DNA from: Dyella sp. AtDHG13
Lineage (GTDB): Bacteria; Pseudomonadota; Gammaproteobacteria; Xanthomonadales; Rhodanobacteraceae
DNA length: 64,000 nucleotides
NCBI RefSeq assembly: GCF_003201105.1
Contig: NZ_QICJ01000012.1
Location: 62,001 to 126,000 of the forward strand
Reading direction: 5' to 3'
Part shown: one piece after another, positions 7,283-55,263 of the stretch
How the letters are laid out: each line of letters starts with the position of its first letter
How positions within the stretch are numbered: the first letter of the stretch is position 1
Position numbers and translations under genes: made by a program
The notes under the pieces: generated by a model
What the model was told of the DNA's origin: nothing
The model's database searches: none
What the model saw: only the letters and a program-made list of their open reading frames with translations

Positions 7283-10200
7283 TCAGGCGAGGTTCTCCAG
7301 CGCGCGGGTCAGGCGCTTGGCCGATACCGGCTCCGGCGTCTTCAGTTCCTGCGCGAACAGGGACACACGCCATTCCTCGATCAACCAGCGCAATTCGTCA
7401 AGGTCGGCGGTTCCCGCCGCGCGATGCTTGAGGTAGTCGCGCCAGAACGGCAGCACCTGCAACATGCGCTGCTGGTCCTTGGCCGGGTCCTGCCGCAGGC
7501 GCTCGGCGCGCAGGCGCATGGCCTTCAGGTAGCGCGGATAGTGCGCCAGCCGTGACGTCGGCAACTCGCGCAGAAAACCCGGCGTGAGCAGAGAATCCAG
7601 CTGCTCGCGCAGATCGTCGTAGCTGGCCCGCGCGAATCCCATCAGGGGCGGTTGCAGCCACGGCTTGAGCTCCGCCTGCGCCTCGATGATGGGCTCGGCC
7701 AGCTTCAGGCGTTCCACCGCCGCGCCGAACAGCTCGCGCGCCGCCTGCGTGTGCAAGGCCTCGAACGCACCAGCGGTACGCACGTCTAGCGCGTGGCGTT
7801 CGAGCAGATCCTGGAAGCCGCCTTCCACCAGGTCCTCGCGCAGGCCGTCCACGCCACCCAGCGGCGCGTACTTCAGCGCCAGGGGATTGCCCACGGGCAC
7901 GCGCCGACGCGCCTGCTTCATGTCGCTGGCCAGCGCATTGCGCAGCAGGCGGATCACGCCCTGCACGTGCGCCTCGCGCGCCTCGTCGCTGCGCTCGAAC
8001 ACGCGCAACGCCACCGCGTCGCCCAGGTCGACCAGCGCGGGGAAGGCCTGCAGCCCGCCAGCGGAGCGGACCTGGGCGGGAATGGCTTCGAAATCCCAGT
8101 TGGCGACGTCTTCGCGGGTCAGCTCGATGTCGGTCTTGCGCGAGAAGGCTTCGCGCGCCTGCCCTTCCCACTGCGCGCGCATCGCGGCCAGGTCGCGGCC
8201 GGTGGCCAGCGTCTTGCCGTTCTCGTCGTGCAAGCGATAGCGCATGCGGAAATGCGCCGGCAACTCCACGGTATCGAACTCGGCCGCCGAGATGTCGACG
8301 CCCGTGGTGCGCTTGAGGAACAAGGCCAGTGCCTTCGCCAACGGCTCGTCACGCGGCGCTTCGGCTTCGACGAACGCACGCGCGAAATCCGGTGCGGGCA
8401 CGAAATTGCGGCGCAGCGCCTTGGGCAGGCCGCGGATCAGCTCAGCCACCTTCTCCGCCAGCAGGCCCGGCACCAGCCACTCGCAGCGCGACGCGGGCAG
8501 CGCGTTCAACATGGCGAGCGGCAGATGGAGCGTGACACCGTCTGCGTCATCGCCAGGCACGAAGCGGTATTCAAGCCGGTACTTCTGCGATGGCATCTCC
8601 AACGAAGCGGGGAACGCCTTGGGATCAAGCCCGGCGCCACCGCTCATCACGTCGTCGAGCGACCAGCGCAGCGCGGCCTGCTCCGCCGGGCGCGCCTTGC
8701 GATACCACGCGTCGAGCGCGCGGCTGTCCGCGACGTCCTGCGGCAGCTTGCCCTCGAAGAAGGCGACCAGCTCATCCTCGCTGCGCAACAGGCCTTCTCG
8801 GCGCTGCTTGGCCTCGATGCCGCGCGCGTCTTCCAGCACGCGCTGGTTGGCGCGCACGAAATCGGTGCGCGCGTCGATATCGCAGCGCGCGAGAGCCTCG
8901 CGCAGGAAGATCTCGTGCGCGAGCGGCGGATCCTGCTTCTGGAACGTCACCGGTCGACGCTCCACCAGCGTGAGGCCGAACAGGCTCACCTGTTCGTACG
9001 CCACCACGTGCCCGCGCTTGCGCGACCAGTGCGCATCGCGACAGGAGGAACGCAACAGGTGGGCCGCCTGCTGTTCGATCCACAGCGGCTCCACGCGGGC
9101 GCACATCATGCCCCACACGCGTCCGCCGACATCGAGAATCTGCGCGGCGAAGATCCAGTTGGGCGGCACCTTGGACAACGCCGAGCCCGGAAACACCTGA
9201 AAACGGCGTTCGCGCGTGCTGCGGTAGACGCCCTTTTCGTCTTTGTGGCCGACCTGCGTCGGCAGGCCGGCGAGCAGGCTGCGGTGGAGGGCCTCGTACT
9301 GCTGCGCCGCTTCGTCACCTTCACTCCCTCTCCCCGCTGGGGAGAGGGCTGGGGTGAGGGGCGGGTGCTCGCGGGAAGGTTGCCTATCTCGTTTATTCGG
9401 GACAGCAACCGCCTTTTTCTTTGCAGACTGCGGCGAGGCTGCCCCCTCTCCCCGACCCTCTCCCACAGGGGGAGAGGGAGAAGTGCCGGCGTCGAGCTTC
9501 CACCCCAACTCCTGCACCACCAGCAACAACTGCCGGTGCAGTTCGCGCCATTCGCGCATGCGCATGAAGCTGAGGAAATGGCGCGAGCACCAGTCTCGCA
9601 GTTTCGACTGCGTCAGTTCCTCGTGCGCGTTGCCGTATTCGCGCCAGAGATTCAGCACGCCAACGAAGTCGGATTTCGGATCGGCAAACGCCGCATGCGC
9701 CGCATCGGCCTGCTGCCGCGCATCCGCCGGGCGCTCGCGCGGATCCTGGATGCTGAGGAAGGACACGATGGCGAGCAGCTCGCGCAGGCTGCGCCGCTCG
9801 TTGGCCTCCACCAGCATGCGCGCCAGCTGCACATCGATGGGCAACCGGGCGACGGTGCGGCCGATGGCCGTGAGCTTGCGTGCATCGTCGATGGCGGAGA
9901 TTTCCGCCAGGCGGCGATAGCCGTCCGCCACCACGCGCGGGTCGGGCGCATCGAGGAACGGGAACTCGTCCACCTCGCCCAGCTGCAACGACAGCATGCG
10001 CAGGATGACGTTGGCCAGCGACGAGCGCAGCAGTTCGGGATCGGTGTAGGCCGCGCGGCTTTCGTAATCCGCCTCGTCGTACAGGCGATAGCAAATGCCC
10101 GGGCCGACGCGGCCGCAGCGGCCCTTGCGCTGGTCCGCCGCCGCCTTGGACACGGGCTCGATATGCAGGCGCTCGAGCTGGCTGCGCTGGCTGTAGCGCT

Positions 10201-11344
10201 TGACGCGGGCCTGGCCGGAATCGACCACATAGCGGATGCGCGGCACCGTCAGCGAGGTTTCCGCCACATTGGTGGCGAGCACGATGCGCCGCTTGGGTCC
10301 GGGCTTGAACACGCGATCCTGGTCGCCGGCGGAAAGCCGCGCATACAGCGGCAGCACTTCGGTTTCGCGGTATTGGCGGCGCGACAGCACCAGATGCGCG
10401 TCGCGGATCTCGCGTTCGCCGGGAAGGAAGATCAGCACGTCGCCGCGCGGATCATCATGAGTGATCTCATCCAGCACCGCGGCCACATGATCGGCACCGC
10501 CCTGCTGCAGATCGCCGGCCCGCTGGCCGCGCCGCGCGGCCACCTCGTCCACGGAACGCCAACGCACTTCCACGGGATAGGTGCGCCCTTCCACCGACAC
10601 GATGGGCGCGTTGCCGAAATGCTCGGCGAAGCGCGCGGTATCGATGGTGGCGGAGGTGACGATGATCTTCAGCGACGGCCGCTTCGCCGCCAGCCGCTTG
10701 AGATAGCCGAGCAGGAAGTCGATGTTGAGGCTGCGCTCGTGCGCCTCGTCGATGATGATGGTGTCGTACGCGCTCAGCCACGGATCGCCCTGCGTTTCGG
10801 CGAGCAGGATGCCGTCGGTCATGAACTTGACCAGGGTGCGCTCGGACACCTGGTCGTTGAAGCGCACCTGGAAACCGACCTGATCGCCCAGCGGCGTGGC
10901 CAGCTCCTCGGCCACGCGTCGCGCGACGGAGCGCGCGGCCAGCCGGCGCGGCTGGGTGCAGCCGATCATGCCGGCCTCGCCACGGCCCGCAGCCAGGCAC
11001 AGCTTGGGCAACTGGGTGGTCTTGCCCGAGCCGGTTTCGCCGGCGATCACCACCACCTGGTGCTTGCGGATCAGTTCGACGATCTCGTCGGCGCGCGCCG
11101 TGATGGGCAGCGACTCGTCCAGGCGTATCGCCGGCTTCGCCTCGGCGCGCGCCTTGCGCCGGGCCACGGAGGCATCGATGTCCGCGCTCAGCGCGGCCAG
11201 CTTCTTTTCGTCGAAACGGCGCGTGAGTTCGCGCCACCGGCCAAGCAAACGGCCATAGTCGCGGCTGGAAACATCGTCGAGCGCCTGGCGCAACGGACGC
11301 AGACGCGCGTCGGTGGAGGCGGCGTGGGGTGCAGTCGGGGTCAT
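7283..11344 (-). CDS. hrpA: ATP-dependent RNA helicase HrpA (DEAH family)
   Basis: About 1353 residues from the ATG at 11344; a further ATG at 11356 and a TTG at 11380 are in frame, and none has a clear ribosome-binding site. Helicase motifs: GETGSGKTT (102-110, motif I), DEAH (199-202, motif II), SATID (motif III) and QRKGRCGRVGPG (motif VI), followed by the HA2, OB-fold and long C-terminal HrpA-specific regions. E. coli HrpA is about 1300 residues and helps rescue stalled or collided ribosomes. Between the segments ending ELGWK and beginning YEALHRSLLAGL lies an extra, low-complexity block of about 55 residues (about 620-673). It is encoded by two inverted hairpin repeats and reads SPSPPVGEGRGEG and PLTPALSPAGRGS. 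The reading frame is kept, so the helicase is probably functional. Confidence 0.95.
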   Translation of the reverse strand: MTPTAPHAASTDARLRPLRQALDDVSSRDYGRLLGRWRELTRRFDEKKLAALSADIDASVARRKARAEAKPAIRLDESLPITARADEIVELIRKHQVVVIAGETGSGKTTQLPKLCLAAGRGEAGMIGCTQPRRLAARSVARRVAEELATPLGDQVGFQVRFNDQVSERTLVKFMTDGILLAETQGDPWLSAYDTIIIDEAHERSLNIDFLLGYLKRLAAKRPSLKIIVTSATIDTARFAEHFGNAPIVSVEGRTYPVEVRWRSVDEVAARRGQRAGDLQQGGADHVAAVLDEITHDDPRGDVLIFLPGEREIRDAHLVLSRRQYRETEVLPLYARLSAGDQDRVFKPGPKRRIVLATNVAETSLTVPRIRYVVDSGQARVKRYSQRSQLERLHIEPVSKAAADQRKGRCGRVGPGICYRLYDEADYESRAAYTDPELLRSSLANVILRMLSLQLGEVDEFPFLDAPDPRVVADGYRRLAEISAIDDARKLTAIGRTVARLPIDVQLARMLVEANERRSLRELLAIVSFLSIQDPRERPADARQQADAAHAAFADPKSDFVGVLNLWREYGNAHEELTQSKLRDWCSRHFLSFMRMREWRELHRQLLLVVQELGWKLDAGTSPSPPVGEGRGEGAASPQSAKKKAVAVPNKRDRQPSREHPPLTPALSPAGRGSEGDEAAQQYEALHRSLLAGLPTQVGHKDEKGVYRSTRERRFQVFPGSALSKVPPNWIFAAQILDVGGRVWGMMCARVEPLWIEQQAAHLLRSSCRDAHWSRKRGHVVAYEQVSLFGLTLVERRPVTFQKQDPPLAHEIFLREALARCDIDARTDFVRANQRVLEDARGIEAKQRREGLLRSEDELVAFFEGKLPQDVADSRALDAWYRKARPAEQAALRWSLDDVMSGGAGLDPKAFPASLEMPSQKYRLEYRFVPGDDADGVTLHLPLAMLNALPASRCEWLVPGLLAEKVAELIRGLPKALRRNFVPAPDFARAFVEAEAPRDEPLAKALALFLKRTTGVDISAAEFDTVELPAHFRMRYRLHDENGKTLATGRDLAAMRAQWEGQAREAFSRKTDIELTREDVANWDFEAIPAQVRSAGGLQAFPALVDLGDAVALRVFERSDEAREAHVQGVIRLLRNALASDMKQARRRVPVGNPLALKYAPLGGVDGLREDLVEGGFQDLLERHALDVRTAGAFEALHTQAARELFGAAVERLKLAEPIIEAQAELKPWLQPPLMGFARASYDDLREQLDSLLTPGFLRELPTSRLAHYPRYLKAMRLRAERLRQDPAKDQQRMLQVLPFWRDYLKHRAAGTADLDELRWLIEEWRVSLFAQELKTPEPVSAKRLTRALENLA
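9325..9483. repeat. Pair of family-A palindromic repeats inserted in frame inside hrpA
   Basis: Left copy: stem CCCTCTCCCC/GGGGAGAGGG (9325-9334 and 9338-9347) followed by the tail CTGGGGTGAGGGGCGGGTGC to about 9372. Right copy: C-rich tail from 9441, then stem CCCTCTCCC/GGGAGAGGG (9456-9464 and 9470-9478) and AGAAG. The two copies are inverted, with stems outermost and tails facing each other across about 65 bp. The same arrangement flanks the DUF559 gene at 27.4-27.8 kb. The whole insert is open in the hrpA frame. Confidence 0.85.
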
Positions 11345-11538
11345 CGGACCGCACATGATAGCCGGTGTGGGGCTTTGCAAGCGCTGGCTTCACTCGCGCC
11401 CGCACATCGACCGGAATGACCGCATCGCGCCGGGCCATAGCTCCCGGCTATCGCCGGCATCGGAAGGATTCATTTCACCGAACGCAACCCGCTCACTACC
11501 CTGACCGCATGTTTCCCCACGATTCCAAGGAGTACGTC

Positions 11539-23960: not shown

Positions 23961-24055
23961 CACCGTCATCCCTGCGAAAGCAGGGATCCAGTGCCTTTAA
24001 TACGTAGGGCTAGAACGAAAGACGCTGGATCCCTGCTTTCGCAGGGATGACGGTG
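23961..24055. repeat. Family-B inverted-repeat pair (REP/BIME-like)
   Basis: Two perfect 31-bp inverted copies (23961-23991 and 24025-24055) separated by 33 bp. Each copy is itself a hairpin (CATCCCTGC/GCAGGGATG type) ending in the shared CACCGTCAT / ATGACGGTG motif. Related elements occur at 30628, 54891 and 57971. No protein is encoded in it. Confidence 0.85.
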
Positions 24056-25991: not shown

Positions 25992-27335
25992 TCACGCGAA
26001 GAACGCCAGCGCCGGCAGCAGACGCTTGGGAATGCGCTGTTCCTCGGACGGCTGCAGCCACGGCTCCAGCGCCAGCTCGTTCGCGTCGAGCTGCGGCAGG
26101 ATCTCGCGGATAAAGCGCGCGACCAGCGTGTCTTCCTGCCATTCCGAGCGCTGGCTCAGCGCGTACATCGCGGCGCGCGCTTCCGCACCCTCGCCCACGC
26201 ATTCGAACGGCTTGTGGTCCTGGTATTCCAGCAGCGCGTCGAAGCCCGGCGCGAGGTTTTCGTCATCGAGCAGGTTGCGCCCGAAGATGGACAACAAGCG
26301 CGGCTTGGCCAGGAACGGCGCCAGCGCCAGGAACACGAAATGGCACTTGGGGCACTGCCCGCACCAGCGATCCGCCGGCTTGGGACCGAGGATCTTGAAG
26401 TTGCGGTTGCAGCTGGAAAACACGTCGAAGTACGGCGTGAGCTTGGAGAACGCGCGCGTCACCGCCAGTTCGGAGAATGGACGCAGCAGCGAGCAGTAGT
26501 CCAGGTCCGCCGCGACGTGCTGGTGCAGCCAGTCGCTGAGCAACTGCTCGAAGGCGTAGCCCTTGCTCCATTGGTGGTTCACCTGCTGGCCTTCGTACTC
26601 CAGCGTGGCCGCTGAGGCAGAACGCTCGTTGGCGAAGGCCACGCTGTCGAAGCCGTAGAGAATCGCCGCCACGGCGAGGATGGCGGAGTTCACCGCCGTC
26701 ACTGGGATATGGCCGTTCCACGCGCCAAGACGATTGAGCTCGAACAGCCCTGGCGCAAGTTCGCGCTGGATGTTGAGCATGGGCAGGCCGGTGCGCTCCG
26801 CGCACGCGGCGATCAGCGGCGAATTGCCGACCCACACGGCCGTGGCGTCGCCGCCGATGGACTTGATGGCTTCCACCGCCACCAGTGAATCCTTGCCGCC
26901 GCCGATGGGCACGAGGGTACGGTGCGGCAGGCCAAGCGCCTTCGCTTCCTGCAGCGTGGCGCCACCCCGAGGGAAGTTGATGCGACCACGCAGGTCCAAC
27001 CCGTTGCGATAGGCGAACTCGGCCAGGCCGTGCAGGTACAGCGCATCCAGCAGGTCGGCGGTGCTGTCGTCCAGCGGGCCACCCGCCACCTCGATGCGTG
27101 GCGGCACGCCGGCCTTGTAGTAGCTCACGCCGGCGATCAGGTGCAGCAGTTTCAGCGCCTGGTCGAAGGCCGCCTGGTGACCGGCCGGCAGCGCCGGCGC
27201 GTTCGGAAAGCGCACGCGCTCGATCAGCTCCTCGCCATGATCGAAGGCGTACACCAGCTCCGCCACGCCATCGGCATAGCTGCAGCGCACGAAGCGGAAT
27301 ACCTGGGTCAGGCGGGGGTTGATGTTGGTGGTCAC
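25992..27335 (-). CDS. murL: UDP-MurNAc-L-Ala-L-Glu epimerase MurL
   Basis: 447 residues from a GTG at 27335 (MTTNINPRLTQVFRFVRCSY), preceded by a GGAG-type site 8-9 bp upstream. It shows the features of the MurL family characterised in Xanthomonas oryzae: an ATP-pyrophosphatase-like loop (LVPIGGGKDSLVAVEAIKS, around 138-156) with Ala/Asn-rich partner segments, and the C-terminal CGQCPKCHFVFLALAPF with paired cysteines. The enzyme inverts the terminal L-Glu of UDP-MurNAc-L-Ala-L-Glu to D-Glu in an ATP-dependent reaction, replacing glutamate racemase MurI. The gene starts 3 bp after the DUF559 stop codon, so its translation may be coupled to that gene. Confidence 0.93.
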   Translation of the reverse strand: MTTNINPRLTQVFRFVRCSYADGVAELVYAFDHGEELIERVRFPNAPALPAGHQAAFDQALKLLHLIAGVSYYKAGVPPRIEVAGGPLDDSTADLLDALYLHGLAEFAYRNGLDLRGRINFPRGGATLQEAKALGLPHRTLVPIGGGKDSLVAVEAIKSIGGDATAVWVGNSPLIAACAERTGLPMLNIQRELAPGLFELNRLGAWNGHIPVTAVNSAILAVAAILYGFDSVAFANERSASAATLEYEGQQVNHQWSKGYAFEQLLSDWLHQHVAADLDYCSLLRPFSELAVTRAFSKLTPYFDVFSSCNRNFKILGPKPADRWCGQCPKCHFVFLALAPFLAKPRLLSIFGRNLLDDENLAPGFDALLEYQDHKPFECVGEGAEARAAMYALSQRSEWQEDTLVARFIREILPQLDANELALEPWLQPSEEQRIPKRLLPALAFFA

Positions 27336-27338
27336 GCC

Positions 27339-27734
27339 TCAGTCTCCATTGCCTGCTCCCTCTCCCCTCCATGGAGAGGGTCGGGGTGAGGGGTCGGGGC
27401 TGGCCAAAGCCTCCAGAATCGCCTCTAGCACGCTGTCAGTGTTCTTCAGTACGTCATTGTTCCAGAAACGCAGGAGCTTGTAGCCGGTGGCTTGCAGCTC
27501 CAACGTCCGGTGTTCGTCATAGATCACCTGGTCGCCATGCTGGCCGCCGTCCAACTCCACGATCAGGCCAGCATCAGGACAGACAAAATCGACGATGTAA
27601 TGGCCAATTTGATGTTGGCGGCGGAACTTCCAGCCCTGTAGCCGACGATCACGCAGGCGGTGCCAGAGCAACTGTTCTGCATCCGTTTGACCGGCCCGCA
27701 GGCTGCGGGCGCGATCTACATGCATGCGCTTCAT
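27339..27734 (-). CDS. DUF559 domain protein, predicted PD-(D/E)XK nuclease, with repeat-encoded C-terminus
   Basis: 131 residues. The DUF559 core (about 1-108) contains LWHRLRDRRLQGWKFRRQH, then the presumed catalytic segments YIVDFVCPDAGLIVELDGGQH (Asp, and the Glu-x-Asp) and a late LLRFWNNDVL, which is the Vsr-like endonuclease fold. Residues from about 110 on (ASPDPSPRPSPWRGEGAG) are not part of the domain: they are the translation of a family-A repeat. A second, inverted copy lies 27 bp upstream of the start codon. The gene sits between lysAC and murL, 3 bp before murL. The function of DUF559 proteins is not established; a nicking or DNA-repair role is inferred from the fold. Confidence 0.88.
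   Translation of the reverse strand: MKRMHVDRARSLRAGQTDAEQLLWHRLRDRRLQGWKFRRQHQIGHYIVDFVCPDAGLIVELDGGQHGDQVIYDEHRTLELQATGYKLLRFWNNDVLKNTDSVLEAILEALASPDPSPRPSPWRGEGAGNGD
27356..27400 (-). repeat. Family-A palindromic repeat, left flank of the DUF559 cassette
   Basis: Stem CCCTCTCC/GGAGAGGG (27358-27365 and 27373-27380) followed by the tail TCGGGGTGAGGGGTCGGGGC. It matches the copies in hrpA and at 27761 in stem and in the GGGGTGAGGGG tail, and is oriented with the tail facing the nuclease gene. It encodes the C-terminal residues of the DUF559 protein and ends about 20 bp before the murL start codon. Confidence 0.85.
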
Positions 27735-27760
27735 CCAGAGCGCTCCTTCTGATACGTCAT

Positions 27761-27820
27761 CGCGAGCACCCGCCCCTCACCCCGGCCCTCTCCCCGGAGG
27801 GGAGAGGGAGAAGTGAGGGA
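27761..27820 (+). repeat. Family-A palindromic repeat, right flank of the DUF559 cassette
   Basis: Tail CGCGAGCACCCGCCCCTCAC (27761-27780), then stem CCCTCTCCCC/GGGGAGAGGG (27786-27795 and 27799-27808) and AGAAG. The tail is near-identical to that of the copy at 30681 and to the reverse complement of the left hrpA copy. It ends 8 bp before the lysAC stop codon and starts 27 bp upstream of the DUF559 start. Confidence 0.88.
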
Positions 27821-27827
27821 CTGAGGT

Positions 27828-30446
27828 TTACTCCAGGATGATCTCTTCCGCCTCATCCCTGAGGTTGTACGGCGAGGACATCACCTTGCCGTAGGCGCCC
27901 GCCTGGGCCACCAGCATCACGTCGCCCTCCTGCGGCTCCGGCAGGCGGCGGTCGGTGCCGAGCACGTCGCCGCTTTCGCAGATCGGGCCCACCACCTGGA
28001 ACAGCGCCGTGGCGGGCTCGTCCAGCCGCGTGAGGTTCACAATCTCGTGCCAGGCCTCGTACAGCGCGGGGCGGATCAGGCTGTTCATGCCCGTGTCCAC
28101 GCCGAGGTAGCGGATCTGGCCGTTGCCCTTGCCCTTGGTCTGCGTGACCTTGGTGACGAGCACGCCCGCGTCGGCCACCAGATAGCGGCCCGGCTCCATC
28201 CACAGCTTGTAGTGCGGATAGGCTGCCTTGACCTCGCGCAGCACCTTGTCGAGCGCGGCGATGTCCAGCCGCGCCTCGCCCGGGTGCGAGGGCACGCCGA
28301 GTCCGCCGCCGATGTCCAGGAAGGTGACGCTGCCGATGCGCTCGGCCAGGCTGGCCAACTGGCCGTAGACCTCGCCCCAATGCGCGTCATCGAGAATGCC
28401 CGAGCCCAGATGCGCGTGCAGGCCACGCACGGTGACGCCATGCGTGTCGGCCAGGCGCAGGAAGGCATCCAGCTGTTCCACCGGCAGGCCGAACTTGCTG
28501 CCGCTGCCGCCGGTGCGCACTTTTTCGTGATGGCCGAGGCCGCGACCGAGGTCGAGGCGCAGCACCACTTCCTTGCCGCGGAACAGCTCACCCCAATTTT
28601 CCAGCTGGTAGAGCGAATCCAGCGACAGCGTGACGCGCGTGGTAAGCGCCCATGCGTAGTCCTCGCGTGGTGCGAAGTTGGGCGTGAACAGCAGTGGCGC
28701 GGAATCCGGTACCACCGCCATCACCGCCTTCAGTTCGCCCGGCGACACGCACTCGAAACCGAAGCCCTCTTCCGCCAGCGCCTTGAGGATGGCCGGATGC
28801 GTGTTGGCCTTCACCGCGTAGTGCAAGCGATCCACCGCCGCCAGCGTTTTCAGCTCGCGCGCCTGCTGGCGCACCGTGGGCAGGTGGTAGACGTAGCGCG
28901 GCGTGGCGCCCGCACCGATCTTGAGCAGATCCGCGCGACGCTCCTCGCGCCACCACGACGCGGCCGGCGGCAGTACCTCGCCGGTGCCGTACAGCGCCTG
29001 CCAGCTGGGACCGAACAGCGCGCTGTCGTCGGTGCGCAGCGCACCCGCCGTGATCAGCAGCTCGTGCAGATGAGGCAGCAGTTCGTCCACCACGTTCTCA
29101 TCCACTACGAAGGTGAGGTTGAGGTTGTTGGACGACTGCGAAATCATGTGCACGCGCAGCTGGCCGAACTCCGCCAGCACGGTGGACAGCGTGTGCAGCA
29201 TGGAGCGCATGCCGCGACCCACCAGGGTGATCGCCGCGCACGGCGCGATCACCTTCACGCGGCACACCTTGGCCAGGTCGCTGGCCAGCGCGGCGAGCGC
29301 GTCGGAGTCGAGCAGGTTTTCGGTGGGGTCCAGCGACACGGTCACGTTGGTCTCGGCCGAGCCGATCATGTCCACCGACAGGCCGTGCTGCTTGAACTGC
29401 GCGAACACGTCGGCGAGGAAGCCGACCTGCTGCCACATGCCCACCGATTCCATCGACACCAGGGTGATGCCCTTGCGCGCGCTGATGGCCTTGACGCTGG
29501 GCGCATGCTCGCGCACTTCCGGGCCGATCAGCGTGCCTTCCAGCTCAGGCCGGTTGGTGTCCTTGATCAGCAGGGGAACGCGCGGCTCGCGCAGCGGCGA
29601 GAGGCAGCGCGGATGCAGCACCTTGGCGCCGGTGGAGGCTATTTCCTGGGCTTCCTCGTAATCCAGTCGCTGCAGCAGGCGGGCACTGGGCACCTGGCGC
29701 GGGTTGGCGGTGAACATGCCCGCCACGTCGGTCCAGATTTCCACGCGCTGCGCCTTGAGCAACGCACCGAAGTACGAGGCGGAGGTATCCGAACCGCCGC
29801 GGCCGAGCAGCACCGTGCGGCCCTGCGATTCGCGCGCGATAAAGCCCTGGGTGATGAACACCTCGCCCAGCGCGGCGAGGCGCGCGTTCAGTGCCGGATC
29901 CGGCTTGGCCTCGACCATCGCCGAGAGCAGCTTGGTGCGCTCGTTCTGGTTGGGCAGCGCGATCGCCGAAAGGCAATCGCGCGCGTCCACCCACTGCGTG
30001 CTCAGGCCGCTGTGGGAAAGAAACGCCGCGCCCAGCGCGCTGGACATCAGCTCGCCGTGCGCCTGCACCAGCGCCGACCACGCCAGCTCGCCCAACTGCG
30101 ACGGGCCTTCGTCGGCCAGCTTCGCCAGCTCGGAGAGCCGCGCGCCGAGGGTGTCCGGAACCGCCAGCTGCATGTGATCGAGCAGGTCGTAATGACGCTG
30201 GGCGATCGCCTTGGCAGCCTCGATGCGTTTGCCCTTGTCTTCCTGCGCGCACAGTTGTTTGAGTGCGTCGGTGATGCCGGTGAGCGCGGACACGACCACC
30301 AGCACGCGGGCGCCTTCGGCGCGGCGGCTGGCAACGAGCTCACGGATGTTCTGCCAGCGCGGCAGGGTAGCGACACTGGTGCCGCCAAACTTCATCACGA
30401 TCCAGGATGCGTCGACAGGAAGCGACGCGGGGCTTTGCGGGTTCAC
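27828..30446 (-). CDS. lysAC: Bifunctional aspartate kinase/diaminopimelate decarboxylase
   Basis: 872 residues from a GTG at 30446. The N-terminal half is an aspartokinase (KFGGTSVATLPRW; GRGGSDTSASYFGALL) with regulatory ACT domains up to about residue 470. The C-terminal half (about 490-872) is a PLP-dependent diaminopimelate decarboxylase with the cofactor Lys546 in HYAVKANTHP, HAHLGSGI, the GGGLG phosphate loop, and ESGDVL carrying the substrate-binding Cys (ICESGD). The fusion joins the first and last steps of lysine synthesis and is a hallmark of Xanthomonadales. The aspartokinase part feeds meso-diaminopimelate to the peptidoglycan made by the neighbouring MurD2/MurL route. It is probably feedback-regulated through its ACT domains. 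Confidence 0.95.
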   Translation of the reverse strand: MNPQSPASLPVDASWIVMKFGGTSVATLPRWQNIRELVASRRAEGARVLVVVSALTGITDALKQLCAQEDKGKRIEAAKAIAQRHYDLLDHMQLAVPDTLGARLSELAKLADEGPSQLGELAWSALVQAHGELMSSALGAAFLSHSGLSTQWVDARDCLSAIALPNQNERTKLLSAMVEAKPDPALNARLAALGEVFITQGFIARESQGRTVLLGRGGSDTSASYFGALLKAQRVEIWTDVAGMFTANPRQVPSARLLQRLDYEEAQEIASTGAKVLHPRCLSPLREPRVPLLIKDTNRPELEGTLIGPEVREHAPSVKAISARKGITLVSMESVGMWQQVGFLADVFAQFKQHGLSVDMIGSAETNVTVSLDPTENLLDSDALAALASDLAKVCRVKVIAPCAAITLVGRGMRSMLHTLSTVLAEFGQLRVHMISQSSNNLNLTFVVDENVVDELLPHLHELLITAGALRTDDSALFGPSWQALYGTGEVLPPAASWWREERRADLLKIGAGATPRYVYHLPTVRQQARELKTLAAVDRLHYAVKANTHPAILKALAEEGFGFECVSPGELKAVMAVVPDSAPLLFTPNFAPREDYAWALTTRVTLSLDSLYQLENWGELFRGKEVVLRLDLGRGLGHHEKVRTGGSGSKFGLPVEQLDAFLRLADTHGVTVRGLHAHLGSGILDDAHWGEVYGQLASLAERIGSVTFLDIGGGLGVPSHPGEARLDIAALDKVLREVKAAYPHYKLWMEPGRYLVADAGVLVTKVTQTKGKGNGQIRYLGVDTGMNSLIRPALYEAWHEIVNLTRLDEPATALFQVVGPICESGDVLGTDRRLPEPQEGDVMLVAQAGAYGKVMSSPYNLRDEAEEIILE

Positions 30447-30578
30447 GGGTACCTACGTGGGTGGTTGGGGAAAACAATCCCGGCAGTGTTGCGCCGCAGC
30501 AGGCGGAATGCAACCGCTGCGCGGGGATAAGCGTTTGGATGGCTAAATGCGGGGGCGTATGGGCTTGCCGCAGAGACT

Positions 30579-30601
30579 CCCTCTCTCCGCTGGGGAGAGG
30601 G
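30579..30601. repeat. Family-A repeat, stem only
   Basis: CCCTCTCTCC-GCT-GGGGAGAGGG (30579-30601), the stem of family A with one mismatch and no recognisable C-rich tail. It forms the left end of an A-B-A repeat cluster between lysAC and fumarase. Confidence 0.75.
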
Positions 30602-30627
30602 AGCAACCTAGCCCCGCCGCTTATACC

Positions 30628-30669
30628 CCCTCACCGTCATTCCCGCCTTCGCGGGAATGACGGTGAGGG
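30628..30669. repeat. Family-B hairpin repeat
   Basis: Perfect 19-bp stem (30628-30646 and 30651-30669) with a CTTC loop; core CCGTCATTCCCGC/GCGGGAATGACGG extended by CCCTCA/TGAGGG. It lies between two family-A copies. Confidence 0.85.
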
Positions 30670-30680
30670 ATGGCAGGCTT

Positions 30681-30735
30681 GTCGCGAGCACCCGCCCCTC
30701 ACCCTACCCTCTCCCCAACGGGGAGAGGGAAAAAG
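30681..30735 (+). repeat. Family-A palindromic repeat with full tail
   Basis: Tail GTCGCGAGCACCCGCCCCTC (30681-30700), then stem CCCTCTCCCC/GGGGAGAGGG (30707-30716 and 30720-30729) and AAAAAG. Its tail is the closest match to the DUF559 right-flank copy. It ends 11 bp from the fumarase stop codon. Confidence 0.85.
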
Positions 30736-30745
30736 CGTGTGGTGC

Positions 30746-54656: not shown

Positions 54657-55263
54657 GGTGCGCGTGGGTCCATCAAGGGGAGCCAGCCCGCGCGAGTGGG
54701 CGTCCGGCGGCGTCCAGCGATGGTGTTCGACCTGCTCGGTGTGCTCGATGGGGATTCCCTACTCGGCTCGGGGAAGTGCGCAGGCTGGACAGGCCGGCCT
54801 GCGGTGCGGGGATGGGACTTCTGCAGACAAGCGTTGCCCCTGCGGGGTTCCCGTAAGCCCGCTCAAGCTGCGTGAAGTTCATTCCCCTCACCGTCATTCC
54901 GGCGCAGGCCGGAATCCAGTGGCGAAGGTCGCCGCTTATCGCGCGATGTCAAAGCGTCCAGCTCTTCGGCGAAAACCGTGCCGTGAAGCCACTGGATTCC
55001 GGCCTGCGCCGGAATGACGGCCAAAATCGGCGCTCACGGGAGACCTTGAACAGCTCTTACACCGCACTGCAACTTGACCCGCGCGGCGTATCGCGAAAAC
55101 CTAGCCGAACGGCCGCTCCGGCCGTATCCGCCATGACCGCCCCCGCGTCCCGCACGCCTGGACGACCATGACGGCCCGCCATCGTCAGCCGCTTGCGCGG
55201 CTTCGTGCGGCGCCGCAGGTCACGTCGGCACGATCCCGCGCCCAACTATGGGAGGGTCGCATC
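54657..55263. other. 607-bp intergenic region (TonB-like B / EF-G-like)
   Basis: It holds a perfect 33-bp inverted-repeat pair (54891-54923 and 54988-55020) and, on the leftward strand, the untranslated or N-terminally extended part of paralogue B up to a TAG near 54765. A 74-codon leftward frame starting in the repeat has no ribosome-binding site and is not supported. The 5' part of the EF-G-like gene transcript must begin here. Confidence 0.6.
54891..55020. repeat. Family-B perfect 33-bp inverted-repeat pair
   Basis: Arms 54891-54923 and 54988-55020 are exact reverse complements; each is a hairpin (CATTCCGGC/GCCGGAATG) ending CCAGTGGC. The spacer is 64 bp. It is the same family as 23961-24055 (which also ends ATCCAG) and 30628-30669, but with GGCGCAGGCC at the loop instead of CGAAAG. 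Confidence 0.85.

Follow-up and report, generated by a model that had tools for sequence, protein, structure and literature searches.

In the 64,000-nucleotide stretch of Dyella sp. AtDHG13 analyzed here (contig NZ_QICJ01000012.1, positions 62,001 to 126,000; hereafter the window), a gene for a small DUF559 nuclease lies between two inverted copies of a tailed hairpin that is also dispersed elsewhere in the genome. Comparisons across bacterial genomes suggest that nuclease and hairpins are probably partners in the dispersal of the repeats, and that the hairpin-gene-hairpin cassette is likely to be the coding member of the repeat family, its nuclease and hairpins forming a matched pair. Directly observed are the association of gene and repeats, the matching of their clades, a copy number that goes with the matching gene, an inner end common to cassette and dispersed pairs, the duplication of the cassette as a unit, and the variable occupancy of orthologous sites; from these patterns we infer that DUF559 may cleave and move the repeats. 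A preliminary description of this DNA had proposed a RAYT-like partnership involving an unrelated enzyme. As a genomic association this is well supported, being strong, specific to DUF559, clade specific, coupled to copy number and REPIN-like in layout; as a mechanism it is unproven, and the freely mobile cassette that formed part of the proposal was not supported.

A DUF559 gene between inverted tailed hairpins

The open reading frame (ORF) at 27339 to 27734 (minus strand, 131 amino acids) matched DUF559 (PF04480) in a Pfam profile search with an E value of 1.3e-41, MTES_1575 being a second, sub-threshold match. The fold of the protein matched 3hrl, I-Bth0305I (3r3p), and Vsr (1cw0, 1vsr), consistent with a Vsr-like PD-(D/E)XK nuclease. 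Catalytic-type residues are conserved, D62 and H66 being invariant, and the closest named relatives of the window protein are from Dyella (77 to 81%). The gene is flanked by CTCCCTCTCCCCTCCATGGAGAGGGTCGGGGTGAGGGG (27356 to 27393) and CCCCTCACCCCGGCCCTCTCCCCGGAGGGGAGAGGGAG (27773 to 27810), which are mutually inverted, with the stems outermost, the tails facing the gene, and arms 85% complementary over 52 nucleotides. Profile match and inverted flanks thus confirm the layout as first described, a DUF559 gene between inverted repeats with inward tails. The left hairpin, on the 3′ side of the gene (27356 to 27393, plus strand, tail GGGGTGAGGGG), encodes about 20 C-terminal codons of the nuclease, and its stem (27356 to 27380) is degenerate, with two changes in the 3′ arm, ATGGAGAGGG. 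The right hairpin, on the 5′ side (27761 to 27810, minus strand), comprises the inner end CGCGAGCACCCGCC, the tail CCCTCACCCC, and a stem at 27786 to 27808. The folding z score was −0.46 for the left hairpin, no better than shuffles, versus −2.40 for the right one. The cassette sits between lysAC (bifunctional aspartate kinase/diaminopimelate decarboxylase; 27828 to 30446) and murL (25992 to 27335), both on the minus strand and identified by model match.

The association extends well beyond this locus. The 250 bp to the left of each profile-located DUF559 domain were aligned with the reverse complement of the 250 bp to its right, and a score above 15 was taken as evidence of inverted flanking repeats. 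This cutoff is the 99th percentile of the scores of 380 displaced flank pairs drawn from these loci; five loci, four with short flanks and one with N runs, were dropped before counting. Such repeats were found at 105 of 133 DUF559 loci (27 of 29 in the host family, 63 of 76 in named genomes, and 15 of 28 in a phylum sample) and at 52 of 59 loci in a second family set. The ParE controls had them at 0 of 28 loci (2 of 30 skipped), and the Y1_Tnp controls, which are mixed Y1 transposases rather than a proper RAYT positive control, at 1 of 23 (7 of 30 skipped). The possibility raised beforehand that DUF559 genes lie no closer to such repeats than other genes do is refuted. The flanked named records include Pseudomonadota and metagenome-assembled genomes labeled Kuenenia, Chloroflexi, Nitrospiria, and Aminicenantes, with further flanked ones labeled Gastranaerophilales, Binatia, Desulfobacteraceae, and Syntrophales; these labels may be wrong. 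Unflanked loci include L072, L091, L100, L109, L115, L128, L140, L141, L146 to L148, L151 to L155, L163, L164, and L168 (L and G denote our handles for loci and genomes).

A crude orientation rule, which misses outward layouts, decided 95 of 158 loci, 94 of them with the tails inward. A tails-outermost layout was seen by eye at no fewer than nine loci, L077, L079, L083, L088, L090, L120, L135, L144, and L167. In several hairpin types a further small hairpin separates the stem from the tail (e.g., GGGAGAAGGTGGCGCGCAGCGCCGGATGAGGG; L273, L319, L326, L158, L166, L096, and L097). Hairpins of this kind are many, with Alphaproteobacteria among their hosts, and may be related to rhizobial RIME elements.

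Protein clade, hairpin type, and repeat dispersal

DUF559 proteins and hairpins sort together. On the protein tree, where the A and B clades were delimited with the hairpin types in view, A hairpins (tail GGGGTGAGGGG) go with the A clade, B hairpins (stem arm GGGAGAGGGG, tail GGGGWGAGGGT) with the B clade, and CCTGC..GCAGG stems with a third group. Protein identity and hairpin similarity were correlated across the 78 family loci with flanking repeats (Mantel rho 0.48, reached in 0 of 500 permutations), and in within-genome contrasts (n = 78) the hairpins were nearer to those of the closest protein relative elsewhere in 70 cases and to those of the own-genome paralog in 8. The match is not exclusive, A-pattern hairpins occurring also outside the A clade (e.g., L233, L241, L292, L311, and L317).

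Copy number follows the matching clade. With DUF559 genes of family genomes counted, here and below, among the matches listed, the median number of A repeats was 33 in the 39 of 147 genomes with an A-clade gene, every one of which had some, compared to a median of 1 and 53 zeros in the 108 genomes without one. B repeats had a median of 5.5 (2 zeros) in the 32 genomes with a B-clade gene and of 0 (87 zeros) in the other 115. Within-genus permutation of repeat number against the matching clade gene gave 0 of 5,000 for both A and B, and the cross-test of A repeats against the B gene gave 2,241 of 5,000. Within the host genus, four genomes with a B gene carried 13, 5, 19, and 5 B repeats, and the other eight carried none. 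That the repeats might be equally abundant without DUF559 is therefore mostly refuted by the clade-matched copy number, with clear exceptions such as G021 and G124, considered below.

The host genome (5.1 Mb) has a single DUF559 match and 49 exact copies of the tail-stem core CCCTCACCCNNNCCCTCTCCC, versus 0 of a reversed control pattern, which rules out a chance origin of the repeats. With up to two mismatches there were 74 copies, some of the two-mismatch ones apparently spurious. At least four further family-A copies had been noted in the window, and four were indeed found, as two pairs (9324/9443 and 30576/30694). The first pair (9324 to 9483) lies in frame within the hrpA ORF (7283 to 11380, minus strand), where HrpA model matches fall in two stretches and the pair lengthens the protein; homologous pairs were found at the corresponding position in six of the seven same-genus genomes examined alongside it, the sequence compared from the seventh not including this part. 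In the second pair (30576 to 30736) the left member, at 30576, no longer has a tail.

Inner ends were surveyed in 36 distinct units from 30 own-genome loci plus the window, 33 of them outside the cassette. By eye, 12 of these 33 had GCGAGCACCCGCC or a one- or two-base variant beside the tail, 20 had an end resembling AAGANTGGCC, and 1 had neither; a stricter script rule assigned the GCGAGCACCCGCC-type end to 10 of the 36 units. Seven of the own-genome pairs seen join one inner end of each kind. The cassette has a GCGAGCACCCGCC-type end on its 5′ side, while its 3′ side is coding and merely resembles the AAGANTGGCC type. Going by these inner ends, the paired hairpins elsewhere look like non-coding, REPIN-like derivatives of the cassette, with similar ends and no gene.

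The gene itself is sedentary. B-clade loci (n = 33) fall into one cluster of 20 and seven other clusters, by single linkage on flanks of about 0.5 to 1 kb, the names hpd, hmgA, acnD, and prpF being assigned to other sites by eye. All 39 A-clade loci, by the same clustering, are at lysAC-murL, so the idea of a freely mobile cassette is not supported; the single address points to mainly vertical inheritance of the cassette, followed by decay. We read the lysAC-murL junction by eye in 27 genomes of the family whose A-clade gene is broken or absent. It held a broken DUF559 gene in 7 (L349, L350, L353, L361, and L363 to L365) and a hairpin alone in 3 (L354, L355, and L357). In 1 (L352) there was a hairpin pair, one member being of B type, and this genome carries 108 B repeats as well as a B-clade gene; 8 had no such element (L351, L356, L358 to L360, L362, L366, and L367). 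The remaining 8 belong to genus g26, in which lysAC abuts murL within about 100 bp in 6 (L368 to L373) and is otherwise arranged in 2 (L374 and L375); filled sites also occur in this genus (L038 and L043). Filled, empty, and decayed states thus all exist. The empty sites sought at this junction are real, and the cassette is not fixed there. In G029 the whole cassette is present three times in tandem, as a 501-bp unit with copies 92 to 100% alike.

Hairpin sites vary as well. About 60 kb around lysAC were compared in seven same-genus genomes 80 to 85% identical (about 28 kb in G102), and occupancy differed among them, one hairpin site of G049 corresponding to a 10- to 11-bp gap in G064 and G090. 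At the 30.6-kb site A-type hairpins are found in six genomes (G000, G090, G049, G035, G064, and G102), and a B-type hairpin occupies the same intergenic place in the B-gene carriers G013 and G078.

Two genomes without an A-clade gene are very rich in A repeats. G124, with 73, retains only a DUF559 remnant at lysAC-murL; in G021, with 238, a DUF559 gene from another clade is accompanied on one flank by an A-pattern hairpin. The window also carries palindromes of an unrelated family (GTCATTCCGGCGCAGGCCGGAATCCAG type), at positions 23961 to 24055, 30639 to 30669, and 54886 to 55020, the middle copy being an insertion that separates the members of the 30.6-kb pair. Similar palindromes are present in L349 and L350, where the lysAC-murL site has decayed.

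Triplex motifs and E. coli ycjD

By comparison with Table 1 of PMC4666352, the tailed hairpins are the known PIT/TM intrastrand-triplex motifs, with a pyrimidine-purine stem and a mirror-compatible third-strand tail. According to that paper, the motifs are intergenic and occur in tandem inverted pairs (K-12 example, CCCTCTCCCTGTGGGAGAGGGCCGGGGTGAGGGC), 23 TM copies are reported from E. coli K-12, and TM loci are described as unstable in E. coli; the triplex is stable in vitro, whereas a stable one in vivo is unsupported. Its authors (Holder et al., 2015) state that no gene for mobility lies close to the motifs. In our set of 418 hairpin units the mirror score was 0.756, versus 0.680 with swapped tails (0 of 200), in keeping with the tail as third strand in a putative purine-motif triplex; its reading as a direct repeat of the stem was the poorer fit (0.711). 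The degenerate left copy in the window is weaker as a triplex motif.

The single DUF559 gene of E. coli K-12 is ycjD (1351407 to 1351760), and TM no. 9 (1351204 to 1351239) lies 167 bp from it, a degenerate TM motif abutting the ycjD 3′ end. The gene is present in 3,365 of 5,426 E. coli genomes and is reported to occur where the eef operon is absent (PMC12817139). Separately, the 3′ end of ycjD is partly duplicated between ycjD and TM no. 9 (L401/L404), with a degenerate TM-like sequence beside each 3′-end copy, as if part of a cassette had been copied. In the phylum sample, with the host family left out, at least five TM copies were found in 31 of 77 DUF559-positive genomes versus 6 of 219 negative ones (Fisher 2.5e−15, ignoring phylogeny), by a pattern that also matches simple CT repeats; high controls were G200, G204, G208, G292, and G335. 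Our literature search, which did not cover subscription papers and preprints, found no paper linking DUF559 to these repeats, and an earlier report is possible.

Mechanism, alternatives, and comparison with known systems

The mechanism that we consider likeliest can be sketched. The nuclease would recognize its own hairpin, probably single-stranded at the replication fork, where stem and tail could fold as a triplex; it would nick or cut beside that hairpin, and repair would copy the hairpin pair into the cut or unoccupied site. The repeats would in this way spread while the gene mostly stays in one place and is inherited vertically, in the manner of RAYTs and their REPINs. Such a cut-and-repair-copy route, possible but still doubtful in our view, would explain a fixed gene with repeats that change in number and type. 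More broadly, we tentatively suggest that DUF559 and its clade-specific triplex-tailed hairpins may form a separate, RAYT-independent class of repeat-spreading systems in many bacterial phyla, in which a Vsr-fold nuclease recognizes a triplex or hairpin and spreads REPIN-like pairs by cutting and repair copying, and which could be the dispersal engine of PIT/TM motifs, including those of K-12 (ycjD).

A number of results weigh against the partnership. No target-site duplication was found, the flanks at the 10- to 11-bp empty sites of G090 and G064 being too diverged to read. Since the A-clade genes are all at one site, the association there partly reflects common descent. The cross-test of B repeats against the A gene gave 7 of 5,000, so the second cross-control is not clean. 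Numerous A repeats occur without an A-clade gene in G021 (238), G091 (112), G124 (73), G040 (70), G131 (57), and G051 (56), several such genomes having another DUF559 gene that itself bears A-pattern hairpins, and B repeats occur without a listed B gene in G053 (39), G066 (35), G098 (24), and G024 (22), G068 being excepted as it has one. The B-gene carrier G035 has A-type hairpins at the 30.6-kb site, just over half of the DUF559 loci in the phylum sample are flanked, only 49% of the 418 hairpin units reach a triplex score of 0.9, and by K-12 ycjD a TM motif was seen on the 3′ side only, none on the 5′ side.

One alternative is a resident host nuclease with a Vsr-like repair function, whose hairpins are kept to regulate or insulate the gene (e.g., autoregulation by binding) and are dispersed by other means. 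The long-term vertical positions of the gene and the conserved catalytic-type residues agree with this, as does Caulobacter VsrA: this DUF559 protein has been implicated in DNA repair/SOS in connection with a cytosine methylase (PMC12907096). It leaves unexplained both the clade-matched copy number and the dispersed pairs with the cassette inner end. Moreover, consensus matching found no terminator- or promoter-like pattern in 27200 to 27950, and we dropped such a role for the hairpins near the gene; Holder et al. also cite previous work in which PIT motifs acted neither as promoters nor as terminators (PMC4666352). We consider this explanation unlikely.

Slightly less probable is a domesticated pair, in which the hairpins are substrates of the nuclease in maintenance, recombination, or fork processing, and slow gene conversion spreads the repeats with no selfish cycle. 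Vertical single-site inheritance, the in-place replacement of hairpin type at 30.6 kb, and the described instability of TM loci in E. coli (PMC4666352) all accord with it, but the clade-specific expansion in copy number and the decay of the gene in several genomes better fit a selfish or semi-selfish cycle. Very improbable is a passenger role, with another enzyme (RAYT/IS200 type) or none moving the repeats and DUF559 caught between two copies: some repeat-rich genomes do lack an intact matching gene, and tandem cassettes could stem from recombination between hairpins, but a profile search for Y1_Tnp (PF01797) had no match in the host genome, leading us to reject a RAYT as mobilizer there, ParE, another small mobile family, was never flanked, and the matching is clade specific across genomes.

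Two further candidates were dropped: an anti-phage defense gene, with only weak PADLOC matches (DpdF, 3.6e−5; mREase_II, 0.003), and phage or plasmid cargo, with matches in 3 phage and 45 plasmid-collection records, several of the latter chromosome-sized.

Should the partnership of nuclease and hairpins hold, repeat-nuclease associations of the REPIN kind would have arisen at least twice, with unrelated enzymes; DUF559 proteins, now of "unknown function," would gain a role, and the DNA triplex a possible biological reader. With a partner gene in hand, PIT/TM dispersal becomes testable in a laboratory strain, as K-12 has a single DUF559 gene.

Among known systems RAYT/REPIN is the closest; the GTAG/CGTC tetranucleotide at the foot of the REP hairpin is described in PMC3733652. 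In both systems a genome carries a single gene or a few, set between inverted copies of a dispersed hairpin, along with dispersed hairpin pairs with the stems outermost, clade matching of gene and repeat, and a mostly vertical gene. They differ in that RAYT is an HUH enzyme while DUF559 has the Vsr/PD-(D/E)XK fold, and in the pyrimidine/purine stems and triplex-type tail of the present hairpins. By eye, none of the 36 own-genome units had a GTAG/CGTC tag. Because the HUH gene and the tag were both sought and not found, we do not regard the cassette as a RAYT/REPIN member.

Vsr, the mismatch nickase of very-short-patch repair, has the fold that DUF559 matches and is itself not repeat-flanked. 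I-Bth0305I, a homing endonuclease encoded in a phage intron, comes without dispersed hairpins, and NGO0050 (3hrl) is a DUF559 protein of Neisseria gonorrhoeae whose entry assigns no function. TnsA, which works with TnsB, belongs to Tn7, a long transposon with other ends. Compared with a transposon and its miniature derivatives, the 5′ inner end is common to the cassette and the non-coding pairs, while the 3′ inner end is coding and only similar. With PIT/TM the motif is the same, the difference here being DUF559 as a linked gene, including ycjD beside TM no. 9 in K-12.
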